A DNA stretch of 35,339 nt from an uncultured Bacteroidia bacterium (GTDB lineage Bacteria; Bacteroidota; Bacteroidia; Bacteroidales; UBA932): NCBI GenBank assembly GCA_902797435.1, contig CADBSV010000070.1, forward strand, positions 1 through 35,339, in the 5' to 3' direction. The notes under the pieces are model-generated. The model was not told where the DNA came from. It did not search any database and saw only the letters and a program-made list of their open reading frames with translations. The position numbers were made by a program, and so were the translations under genes. Shown piece by piece: positions 11,734 to 13,851 of the stretch; the first letter of the stretch is position 1; each line of letters opens with the position of its first letter.

Positions 11734-12584
11734 AAGCTCGCTGTCACATAATTGTCCTGCTCACCATGTGTTTGATTTCCTGCAGCAAAGACCCCGGCGG
11801 GTCTTCGGCCGGCCCGCTTGTCGTGGAAGGGTGGATCGAGTCGGGAGAGTTCCCCGTGGTGATGGTAACCACTCCGGTAGTTCCAAGCGAGGAGTACCAG
11901 AGCATTGACGACCAGGCCGGGCATATTGTCCGCTGGGCAAGGGTGAGCGTTTCCGACGGAGACGAAACCATACTGCTGACCGGGATGTACAATCGTTATT
12001 ATTTCCCTCCTTTCATATATACGACAAACCGCATGCGTGGTAAGGAAGGGAAGACATACACCCTGGAGGTTGAATATGGCGGCCGGGTAGCCACAGCTGT
12101 GACAACCATTCCGGCCCGGGTCGCACTTGACAGGATAGATGTCATCCCGGATGAAGGCGGGAGCGGAGAATACTGCCTCAGGGGTGTGTTCAGCGATCCT
12201 CCGGAGGAAAAGAATTACTACAGGCTGTTTGTCAAGGCCCAGGGAAGGGACAGCACCTTTGTCCCGTCTTTTCTCGGCGTATTCGATGACGAAAATATCT
12301 CCCGGCCGGCCTCGCATGAAATAATGAGGGGGTCGAGCATAACCAATGAGGATTCATGGGACTGGAACCCTGCACTTTTCGAAGCCGGCAGGAAGGTGTC
12401 CATAAAATTCTGCACGATAGACGCCGAGAGTTACCGCTATTGGACGAGTTTCGAGAAAGTATCCGCCCTCTCCATCCTTCCTATGTTCTCCGCAGCGTAC
12501 AATCCGCAGTACAACGTAGAAGGAGCAATGGGCTATTGGTGCGGCTACGGGCTCTCCGAATATGAGATAATACCGGGGGAGTAG
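11730..12584 (+). CDS. DUF4249 domain-containing lipoprotein
   Basis: This 284-residue protein has a short lipoprotein signal peptide with lipobox LISC (Cys18). It continues with the DUF4249 opening LVVEGWIESGEFPVVMVT and strand-rich segments (ARVSVSDGDETILL, KTYTLEVEYGG). It ends with EGAMGYWCGYGLSEYEI, a typical conserved C-terminal block of the family. DUF4249 proteins are encoded next to TonB-dependent receptors and are thought, by analogy with SusD-type partners, to be surface or periplasmic accessory lipoproteins; no biochemical role is established to my knowledge. The ATG overlaps the receptor's stop (ATGA). No hairpin with a T-run on the plus strand follows directly. Confidence 0.85.
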   Translation: MKARCHIIVLLTMCLISCSKDPGGSSAGPLVVEGWIESGEFPVVMVTTPVVPSEEYQSIDDQAGHIVRWARVSVSDGDETILLTGMYNRYYFPPFIYTTNRMRGKEGKTYTLEVEYGGRVATAVTTIPARVALDRIDVIPDEGGSGEYCLRGVFSDPPEEKNYYRLFVKAQGRDSTFVPSFLGVFDDENISRPASHEIMRGSSITNEDSWDWNPALFEAGRKVSIKFCTIDAESYRYWTSFEKVSALSILPMFSAAYNPQYNVEGAMGYWCGYGLSEYEIIPGE

Positions 12585-12590
12585 TGCGTG

Positions 12591-12634
12591 TAAAAAGACA
12601 AATGAGACCGGCTGAATTATCAGTCGGTCTCATT
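12591..12634 (-). terminator. Terminator of tRNA-Phe (minus strand), perhaps bidirectional
   Basis: A 15-bp stem (12601-12615 with 12620-12634, one G-T pair) with an ATTA loop is followed on the minus strand by a T-rich tract (12600-12591). It ends tRNA-Phe transcription. It could also stop transcription from the DUF4249 operon, but no T-run follows on that side. Confidence 0.8.
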
Positions 12635-12637
12635 ATG

Positions 12638-12710
12638 TGGTGCTGGCAGGAGTTGAACCGGCGACACATGGATTTTCAGTCCATTGCTCTACCACCTGAG
12701 CTACAGCACC
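12638..12710 (-). tRNA. tRNA-Phe (anticodon GAA)
   Basis: On the minus strand the 73-nt cloverleaf has a 7-bp acceptor stem (GGTGCTG with CAGCACC), a D arm with AGCTCAGGTGGTAGAGC, and an anticodon stem/loop ATGGA-CTGAAAA-TCCAT with anticodon GAA. The T arm is CCGGTTCAACTCCTG and the discriminator base is A. CCA is not encoded (the following bases are CAT), so it must be added by the CCA-adding enzyme. Confidence 0.97.
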
Positions 12711-12721
12711 GTTTTGGGTTT

Positions 12722-12753
12722 GCAAAGATAGGCATTTTCGGACAATCTGCAAA
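12722..12753 (-). promoter_or_regulatory. Promoter of tRNA-Phe with full -33/-7 elements
   Basis: On the minus strand TTTG (12753-12750) and TATCTTTGC (12730-12722) are separated by 19 bp. This is an excellent match to the Bacteroidota TTTG-N19-TAnnTTTG promoter, and the -7 box ends 11 nt before the tRNA 5' end. Confidence 0.8.
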
Positions 12754-12774
12754 TTATTTTTAAAAAATAATGCA

Positions 12775-12810
12775 ACTATGGCCCCTGACTTCACAGCGAG
12801 GGGCCATAGT
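12775..12810. other. Perfect 12-bp inverted repeat in intergenic space, role unknown
   Basis: ACTATGGCCCCT (12775-12786) and AGGGGCCATAGT (12799-12810) form a perfect 12-bp stem with a 12-nt loop. On the plus strand a short T-run (12818-12822) begins 7 nt after the stem; on the minus strand a T-rich stretch lies further away. It may be a terminator of the DUF4249 transcript or of an unannotated RNA. No coding sequence is seen here, and nothing else is recognised between it and about 12929. Confidence 0.6.
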
Positions 12811-12929
12811 ACTGAAGTTTTTCTTGTGTAGTTTAAGTACTTTATCTAAATAACTCTTTTGTTACTTATATCCTTCTCTTATCTTTCGTAAGCAAAATTA
12901 GGGAGTTTGTACGTCTGTTCCTTCAAAAA

Positions 12930-13039
12930 GTGACAGTGACGTACGATAAGTGACAAAATAGGTGAATTAGTGACAAAAACGCTTATTTTGTGACAAAATG
13001 AATATAATTTGTATATTTGTCACAGCTAAAATTGTGACG
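12930..13039 (+). promoter_or_regulatory. Operator-like array: GTGACA sites at exact 20-bp spacing upstream of the LytTR gene
   Basis: GTGACA occurs at 12930, 12950, 12970 and 12990, an exact 20-bp phase, and the last three copies continue as GTGACAAAA. An additional GTGACG overlaps at 12936. A core in inverted orientation (GTCAC, 13019-13023) overlaps the end of the -7 box, and another GTGAC (13034-13038) lies just before the ATG. The 12990 copy sits inside the 15-bp palindrome ATTTTGT-G-ACAAAAT (12985-12999). A spacing of about two helical turns places all sites on one DNA face, as for the direct repeats bound by LytTR domains. Autoregulation by the downstream gene is inferred. Confidence 0.75.
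12987..13020 (+). promoter_or_regulatory. Promoter of the LytTR regulator gene
   Basis: TTTG (12987-12990) and TATATTTGT (13012-13020) are separated by 21 bp and match the Bacteroidota promoter. The -33 box overlaps the fourth GTGACA repeat and the -7 box overlaps the inverted GTCAC copy, so bound protein would affect initiation directly. Confidence 0.7.
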
Positions 13040-13041
13040 AA

Positions 13042-13851
13042 ATGCGCGATATTCCAAAGATTTTCTTCGGTTGGCCGTCTGTAGTTCTGCATATGACCAT
13101 CCCCCCGGTGTTCTTTCTTGCGTTCGCTATTGTCTATAATCCATTCGGGATCGTCGAGTTCCTTGACATGGGGAGGGGTTTGTCCGCGTTCAACCTGTCA
13201 ATTATTTTTGCAATCGCGCTTGTGTCGCTGATGATTACTCGCATAGGCTTTCATTTCTTTGCCAGGGCGAAGCATTTTCCCTGGCTCGTGTATATCAGCT
13301 GGTGCCTGGGGGAAATGCTGGTCATATCTCTTTTCGTGGCTTTGTACGTGTCCCTTATGTCCAGGGGAGTTTATCCGTACTTTGAAGCGCTTTTCCGTTT
13401 TTCCCTTGGAGACACGATGCTCATACTTATCTATCCGTATGCGATTCTCACTTTGTCCTATGCGATTTCGGCGACCTCGGGCGAAACGGGTGATGAAGCC
13501 GCGGATAATGAGAGTCTGATACGTTTTTATGATGTTTACAAGAAACCGAAGCTTCTTATCGCAGTCAGCGCGATTCTGTATATAAAGGCGGATGAGAACT
13601 ATATGAACATCTGGTACACAGACAACGGCAGGCCGGTAAAATTCTCCCTGAGGGCCCCTATGAACTCCATCGAGGAGAGCTGCATCAGACACGGTCTGGT
13701 GCGTTGCCAGCGCTCGTATTTCATAAATCCGGCCCATGTGACCATACTCCGCAAGGAGAACGGCTGGATATATGCCGACCTCGACATGGAAGGACTTCCG
13801 AGTATTCCGGTCTCCAAGCGTTATTACGACGCTCTGTCCAGCCTTTTATAA
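13042..13851 (+). CDS. Membrane-anchored LytTR-domain transcriptional regulator
   Basis: The 269-residue protein has four predicted membrane spans (about residues 10-32, 50-67, 80-106 and 120-142), an acidic linker (146-160) and a C-terminal LytTR DNA-binding domain (about 168-269). The domain shows ILYIKADENYMNIWYTDNG, then the block around LVRCQRSYFINPAHV and the ending IPVSKRYYDAL, which are the standard LytTR landmarks. No receiver domain is present and no histidine kinase gene is adjacent, so it is probably a one-component membrane sensor/regulator. The ATG follows a good promoter by 21 nt, and the promoter region holds a phased array of GTGACA sites, which suggests autoregulation. The signal sensed by the membrane part is unknown. 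Confidence 0.88.
   Translation: MRDIPKIFFGWPSVVLHMTIPPVFFLAFAIVYNPFGIVEFLDMGRGLSAFNLSIIFAIALVSLMITRIGFHFFARAKHFPWLVYISWCLGEMLVISLFVALYVSLMSRGVYPYFEALFRFSLGDTMLILIYPYAILTLSYAISATSGETGDEAADNESLIRFYDVYKKPKLLIAVSAILYIKADENYMNIWYTDNGRPVKFSLRAPMNSIEESCIRHGLVRCQRSYFINPAHVTILRKENGWIYADLDMEGLPSIPVSKRYYDALSSLL

Follow-up and report, generated by a model that had tools for sequence, protein, structure and literature searches.

In a stretch of 35,339 nucleotides from an uncultured Bacteroidia bacterium (Bacteroidales; UBA932), here called the window, copies of GTGACA stand at 20-bp steps ahead of a gene for a membrane protein with a LytTR domain. What is this array for, which protein reads it, and is the regulator gene all that it serves?

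The repeat array at the promoter of the regulator gene

Four GTGACA copies begin at 12930, 12950, 12970, and 12990 of the forward strand. Inspection of the sequence agrees on this with an earlier note on the window. The three inner copies share the 9-bp sequence GTGACAAAA and are separated by spacers of 11 bp. They are called here S1 (12950–12958), S2 (12970–12978), and S3 (12990–12998). The first G of S3, at 12990, is also the last G of the −33 box TTTG (12987–12990, forward strand). The −7 box TATATTTG follows at 13012–13019 on the same strand and is assigned to what we take to be a promoter of the Bacteroidota type. An inverted copy, TTTGTCAC (read on the minus strand as GTGACAAA), lies at 13016–13023 and has TTTG in common with the −7 box. 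A further forward copy, S4 (GTGACGAAA, 13034–13042), is 44 bp after S3 and runs into the ATG at 13042. The earlier note had copies overlapping both the −33 and the −7 box and one ahead of the ATG; all three placements hold. On the distal side, the GKGAYG element S0 (GTGACGTAC, 12936–12944, forward strand) is about 14 bp ahead of S1. The outermost GTGACA (12930–12935, forward strand) is 20 bp ahead of S1 and 2 bp off a candidate −33 box of a divergent promoter. Counted singly, GTGACA is seen 18 times in the window against 10.8 expected. This enrichment is only mild, so spacing and conservation were used instead of motif counts.

Homologues were collected from 61 relatives and from 400 genomes of the genus, 272 of which have a match at 1e-25. 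The sampling followed high-scoring places and is thus non-random; 80 homologues were taken by coordinates and the others as search loci. Removal of 11 near duplicates from 138 upstream regions left 127 non-redundant ones, and one locus with a truncated sequence (L050) was left out. Pairs of GKGAYNAA at 19–21 bp are seen in 64 of the 127 upstream regions, and triples in 34. In 200 dinucleotide-shuffled sets, the mean number of pairs was 0.015 (maximum 1), and triples did not occur. The array is not a product of chance. The 20-bp phase and the core, whose conservation in orthologous promoters the earlier note had suggested examining, are kept. The histogram of repeat spacings is sharp, with 89 cases at 20 bp and further peaks at 14 (14 times), 34, 40, and 44 bp.

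Both the array and the inverted copy are present in 77 of the 127 loci, and there S1 begins at about −66, S2 at about −46, and S3 at about −26 relative to the inverted copy. An anchored set of 56 loci was compared position by position, the other 21 of the 77 being left out. With 1 bp of slack, GKGAY is found at S1 in 46, at S2 in 40, and at S3 in 53 of the 56, and GKGAYG is found at S0 in 37. A copy shortly ahead of the start codon, corresponding to S4, is present in 45 of the 56. The outermost position is conserved poorly, and less well than S0: with the same slack, it reads GTGACA in 5 loci and GTnAC in 17. The array had been described as lying on one face of the DNA. The direct repeats do lie so. 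An inverted copy also belongs to the conserved set, however, and the copy at 12930 has no conserved counterpart at the 20-bp step.

The motif drifts among loci, for example between GTGAC and GGGAC. The variable base is identical in S3 and the inverted copy in 50 of the 56 anchored loci. On the protein tree, four to five independent pairs change the same way, none the opposite way, and four to five have no difference (p 0.0625–0.125). As the tree-corrected p falls short of significance, the concordance is suggestive only; it suggests that S3 and the inverted copy may be read by the same protein.

High occupancy of the sites at the −33 box, the −7 box, and the start codon would be expected to shut the regulator's own promoter. 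S1 and S2, however, form a 9-11-9 pair that ends 8 bp ahead of the −33 box. In the LytTR regulatory systems (LRS), as described in part of PMC6193735, direct repeats are 9 bp long with a separation of mostly 12 bp (11 or 13 in some); they lie 4–11 bp ahead of the −35 box and are activating. The S1–S2 pair matches this layout, so the regulator's own promoter may be either repressed or activated. An LRS-like positive feedback, with the pair activating this promoter and the array not repressing it, is a serious but rather doubtful alternative. Against it stand S3, the inverted copy, and S4, which overlap the −33 box, the −7 box, and the start and are thus where repressing sites would be expected. 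Moreover, S3 and S4 are kept about as well as S1 and S2 (53 and 45 against 46 and 40 of the 56).

The divergent promoter and the predicted small RNAs of the window clade

The earlier note regarded the array as the autoregulatory operator of a one-component membrane LytTR protein. A conserved phased array at the promoter agrees with this, but the array's place between two divergent promoters was overlooked. On the minus strand, a −7 box, TAATTTTG, is present at 12893–12900, as judged by the box pattern and by a fixed distance, with a weak candidate −33 box, TTTG, at 12924–12927. The minus-strand −7 pattern is seen in 63 of the 77 loci; its position relative to the inverted copy is −126 to −123 in 62 of these 63. 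S0 and the outermost copy adjoin the T-rich −33 region of this promoter. Since a second promoter stands at a fixed distance on the far side, the array is probably common to two promoters. The distal end of the array abuts the divergent −33 region, a placement that would suit activation.

The divergent products of the 127 loci were assigned by similarity to representatives; RNA loci were picked by eye, and each of them then proved to have a terminator hairpin. The products are GT8 glycosyltransferases (22 loci), SGNH/GDSL proteins (18), AMP-binding ligases (13), AATase-type proteins (5), acyl-ACP thioesterases (4), FabH (4), and FabF, a PlsC-like protein, a condensation-type protein, and another glycosyltransferase (1 each). 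In 28 loci, including the window, the product is an RNA of 72–151 nt with a terminator and no long open frame. The remaining 29 have none of these products, and strict pairs are seen in just 5 of the 29. The divergent protein genes are mostly for lipid or glycan enzymes. By sequence comparison, the repeats are a real, conserved operator in a bidirectional cassette, with a membrane LytTR regulator on one side and a divergent RNA or lipid gene on the other. Because KS III, KS II, ligase, and thioesterase occur among the divergent genes, aryl polyene clusters were also considered; they were discarded, as the regions fetched were fabH-fabK-fabF-fabZ and a paper search for an aryl polyene link listed nothing relevant.

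In the window, the predicted divergent product is a small RNA of about 120 nt, sRNA1, on the minus strand at 12765–12888 (ends approximate). It has a 5′ hairpin, AAGUAAC..GUUAUUU (12848–12867), a core, AAAGTACTTAAACTA (12829–12843), and a terminator hairpin (12775–12810) followed by a T-rich tail. The fold of 12765–12889 has a z of −4.92, and none of 200 shuffles was equally stable. Downstream of the terminator is tRNA-Phe (12638–12710, minus strand), with a −7-like box of its own in between. In two relatives (L040 and L041), the terminator hairpins differ in sequence, and a short core around AGTAC is kept. An own promoter, an intrinsic terminator, and the lack of a long open frame, which together define a small RNA here, are predicted both for the window and for a related clade treated below. 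Two other identities were rejected. A leader or attenuator does not fit, as the downstream sequence varies among loci and, in several of them, belongs to a convergent gene or to a tRNA that has a promoter of its own. A small-protein gene does not fit either, as the predicted window transcript has no long open frame.

A search of Rfam with 12500–13100 of the window returned the tRNA and one match far below the gathering score. With seven loci (L040, L041, L049, L059, L199, L200, and L299), only tRNA reached the gathering score. No strong mRNA target of sRNA1 was found at 60 gene starts in the fetched stretches of its own genome (best −10.9 kcal/mol), and the ligase starts of this genome have no clear sRNA1 site. 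FabZ matches at an E of 1e-30 were obtained in 12 of 19 genomes of the window clade, the own genome not among them, and the 3 fabZ starts displayed of these 12 have no site. Some divergent RNAs of type B (L046, L055, L058, and L059) have TACTGCCAACC in common, apparently in loops on differing stems, as read by eye.

A search for complements of the type B core gave 35 matches in total against 15 for the control, and it uncovered a second predicted small RNA gene, sRNA2, in 11 of 15 window-clade genomes, the own genome included. In the own genome, it is on contig C31 near 35718 (G000; L299:1486–1565) and has a 39-nt 5′ part that is near-invariant, as well as a terminator. Its start there is near that of an open frame transcribed divergently. 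The first 39 nt are identical in 11 copies, which were picked through an 11-nt match and by eye.

The pairing of the window sRNA1 with sRNA2 is predicted at −27.2 kcal/mol, own folding being ignored, against −14.0 (sd 2.6) for shuffles, none of 300 of which reached it. The pairing includes 12829–12837 of the core, and the segment GAAAAACTTC (12814–12823, minus strand) complements the first 10 nt of sRNA2. The window sRNA1 took no part in the search that revealed sRNA2; for the type B RNAs, pairing was partly built in by that search. For 7 of the 11 cognate pairs, at most 1 of 300 shuffles reached the pairing energy. The other four pairs are weak or absent, being reached by 204 (G127), 40 (G292), 15 (G279), and 11 (G268) of 300 shuffles. 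Since sRNA1 pairs with sRNA2, it probably works through an RNA–RNA pair in the window clade. In one genome (G351), the sRNA2 sequence is found directly ahead of a ligase paralogue and pairs over 15 nt with the sRNA1 of that genome, from which sRNA2 may be a target mimic.

Enterobacterial sponge or anti-sRNA pairs consist of two trans-encoded small RNAs that are complementary to each other over a long stretch, and one of them resembles the target of the other. The sRNA1–sRNA2 pair is like them in mutual complementarity and differs in that the gene of one partner neighbours that of a membrane LytTR regulator. In four window-clade genomes (L298, L303, L308, and L311), TTAAGTTTAGG is also seen in a conserved leader, about 100–150 nt ahead of an SSB-like gene named by eye.

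The array could instead be a simple autoregulatory operator for the LytTR gene alone, with the window RNA a non-functional leader and terminator left after loss of a divergent gene. At the place of the short RNA, near relatives (L043–L045) do carry a divergent SGNH/GDSL gene. The failure to find an mRNA target at the 60 starts, and an array seen only here in the own genome, would also fit. We nevertheless regard this as unlikely. In L040 and L041 the short RNA retains promoter, core, and terminator, though the terminator sequence has changed, and the pairing with sRNA2 goes far beyond that of shuffles. In the related clade, RNAs at the same place are conserved, and their targets covary with them. 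The reading that we favour, and hold to be reasonably probable, is that a one-component membrane LytTR switch controls its own gene as well as a divergent RNA with a regulatory role in lipid metabolism.

The regulator as the probable reader of the array

The regulator gene (13042–13851, forward strand) encodes 269 amino acids. Hydropathy, used alone for this purpose, places four hydrophobic segments at residues 13–31, 47–65, 88–106, and 120–138. The C-terminal part matches the LytTR domain PF04397 (E 4.7e-11; 43.2 bits, cut-off 22.6). Four membrane spans and a LytTR domain, as proposed earlier, are thus recovered. A structure prediction was unusable (mean pLDDT 37.6), and a sequence search of the PDB gave no match. 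On one flank of the gene are the divergent RNA and tRNA-Phe; on the other are a gene for 158 amino acids without a Pfam match and then a gcvT-like gene, named by eye.

A single chain carries both a DNA-binding domain and, by hydropathy only, one or more membrane segments, which is the make-up of a transmembrane transcription regulator (TTR). A soluble regulator with a separate co-encoded membrane inhibitor, which defines an LRS, is not seen; there is a single gene with membrane segments of its own. The regulator is a LytTR protein of the transmembrane one-component class, outside the LRS definition owing to the absence of a separate inhibitor.

The exact double site was searched in 61 genomes and gave 23 matches against 1 for the control. 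Fifteen of them are ahead of LytTR genes, 5 (three loci) are ahead of an AATase-type gene without an adjacent LytTR gene, and 3 are elsewhere. Three of the LytTR-linked double sites belong to other families of the order (G037, G055, and G057). In the own genome, whose assembly is 80% complete, the search for double sites allowed up to 3 mismatches and yielded 9 matches, the control 11; those beyond the array all have 3 mismatches and were taken as chance. Pairs of GTGAC 19–22 bp apart gave 6 matches there, 3 of which are the array itself, against 5 for the control. The genome search for further spaced GTGACA that the earlier note had proposed thus meets the array nowhere else in this 80%-complete genome. 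A LytTR paralogue beside a fabH-like gene (L028) has GTGGYRAAA sites, with TTTGTCGCC over its −7 box.

These distributions point to the neighbouring LytTR protein as the putative reader of the array. That another regulator reads it is very unlikely. The three orphan arrays ahead of AATase-type genes without an adjacent LytTR gene would be in its favour, but across genomes, and in three further families of the order as well, arrays follow LytTR genes; the motif variant of L028 is specific to its paralogue, and the site spacing is that of LytTR sites. LytTR domains bind direct repeats at a distance of about two helical turns. The membrane-embedded LytTR protein would most likely occupy the tandem GKGAYNAAA sites with its DNA-binding domains lined up in a chain, one about every two turns.

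The orphan arrays themselves (L153, L163, and L167) could be trans targets. Upstream of a second acyl-CoA ligase (L278–L288), TTTCGCCACA/TTTTCACCACA-like sites are present at most of these ligase paralogues, and they resemble the motif variant of the fabH-type LytTR paralogue. Other LytTR paralogues, one of them in the own genome (L197), stand beside a fabF-like start, as read by eye.

According to the parts of PMC6193735 that describe them, the LRS HdrRM and BrsRM are like the window in that a LytTR regulator adjoins its own direct repeats upstream of the promoter, the repeats being 9 bp long and 11–13 bp apart. They differ in having a soluble regulator with a separate membrane inhibitor, two repeats, and positive feedback. 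The same source already notes membrane LytTR proteins with direct repeats upstream in Bacteroides. In these LRS-like operons, the LytTR protein itself has membrane segments, as in the window. Their repeats are 11 bp long, 11 bp apart, and 11 bp ahead of the promoter, and an NfeD/DUF2154 membrane protein is co-encoded. The window differs from both in having one gene, a larger array with an inverted copy at the −7 box and a copy at the start codon, and a divergent small RNA or lipid gene at a fixed distance. TTRs, in which Bacteroidota are described as enriched (PMC10269533), are likewise one-component DNA-binding proteins anchored in the inner membrane; an operator array and a divergent small RNA are absent from the description of TTRs in the sections of that paper that bear on them.

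The RNA of the related clade and its predicted targets

A covariance model was built from nine RNAs of another clade, which were found through their LytTR genes. In the 400 genomes, it gave 49 matches at 1e-3 in 45 genomes. Thirty of the 49 were placed as loci, the other 19 being all weak. Of the 30, 27 are beside a divergent LytTR gene, the best 24 among these, and outside the training set the figure is 18 of 21. In one locus (L227), the LytTR gene is present as its first 28 residues ahead of the contig end. The three without a LytTR neighbour (L223, L226, and L228) are weak matches and were left out of the alignment A3. In the 27 RNAs, the terminator helix is 97.0% paired, with double changes in 7 of its 11 pairs, and the covariation score is 0.551 against 0.202 for shuffled alignments. 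AAGTTAAAGTACA, ahead of the terminator helix, is nearly invariant. The model gave no match to the window RNA and its relatives (24 sources, E up to 1). The window RNA is by sequence of a different type, and homology of the two types is unproven, since the model does not match it.

The complement of the 12-nt core has 40 exact matches in the 27 genomes, against 11 for the reversed pattern, a control on count only. The RNA gene itself makes up 21 of the 40. The other 19 are ahead of gene starts in 17 cases and elsewhere in 2. These genes encode long-chain acyl-CoA ligase (12), FabZ (2), butyrate kinase (2), and FabF (1). The sites end 7–42 nt ahead of the start codon, 16 of the 17 at 18 nt or less, and many ligase sites directly follow the stop codon of a co-oriented upstream gene. 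A single representative per kind was scanned, and the remaining proteins were matched by eye. In these scans, FabF and butyrate kinase were above the cut-off, FabZ and FabK were slightly under it, and the ligase was named from its closest families. The fabF and fabZ targets sit in a fabH-fabK-fabF-fabZ operon divergent from a LytTR paralogue, as seen at L332:9119–13888 and L325:5358–10098.

Ligase starts were then taken from 25 of the 27 genomes irrespective of the motif; the other two (G089 and G295) have no ligase match at 1e-230. Changes in the RNA core are mirrored in the ligase site in five genomes (G322, G265, G258, G020, and G031). The mean pairing energy is −19.7 kcal/mol for cognate and −16.1 kcal/mol for non-cognate combinations of RNA and ligase site, and none of 20,000 permutations was as low, relatedness being uncorrected and the sites orthologous. 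At least 11 contiguous pairs, with G-U counted, are formed by 20 of the 25 ligase sites; fewer are formed in G361, G323, G365, G025, and G380. The ligase starts of 19 window-clade genomes, which are without this RNA type, form at most 9 contiguous pairs with any of the 27 seeds. In seven larger regions, chosen for holding a site, the predicted target ranks first of 15–21 genes in each.

That these short, AT-rich sites are DNA-level operator or promoter elements and not RNA pairing sites is highly improbable, as they end 7–42 nt ahead of starts, many ligase ones right after a same-direction stop, and change base by base with the small RNA core in the five genomes named above.

Pairing between the RNA and its targets is, on these comparisons, strongly indicated in the related clade and indirectly in the window. 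The small RNA of the related clade, encoded at the same place, most likely pairs through its unpaired core of 12–13 nt with the translation starts of fatty-acid genes and would block their translation. The window RNA would serve the same end.

GibS of Bacteroides thetaiotaomicron is comparable, as far as it is described in part of PMC7366714, in being an intergenic small RNA whose unpaired seed forms base pairs in the region of start codons. It differs in its link to sugar, its length of 145 nt, and its targets, and neither "LytTR" nor "fatty acid" occurs in the main text of that paper. In the open-licence PMC literature, at the level of titles and the starts of abstracts and among the matches listed, no small RNA of Bacteroidota is connected with fatty-acid synthesis or with a LytTR regulator.

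The whole cassette would be a switch from the membrane to lipid metabolism. A wider circuit for membrane-lipid homeostasis in Bacteroidales can be proposed tentatively. The four-helix LytTR protein would sense the bilayer, and the two-way operator would control the regulator itself and a small RNA acting on fabF, fabZ, acyl-CoA ligase, and butyrate kinase messages. In the window clade, the output would be buffered by the target-mimicking, near-invariant sRNA2. With the paralogues beside fabH-fabK-fabF-fabZ and their own motif, one family would control lipid synthesis at two levels, through transcription and through RNA. If true, lipid genes of Bacteroidales would be linked to a membrane protein by a complete chain that can be tested. 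The circuit would also add a small RNA with covarying targets in a group for which, in the part of PMC7366714 concerned with Bacteroides, no obvious Hfq or ProQ homologue is reported. An operator code with one motif variant per paralogue may then let regulator–target pairs be read from sequence.

One exact core complement (L253, in G365) has no gene start nearby and adjoins a hairpin-like sequence. It is possibly a sponge at a 3′ end.
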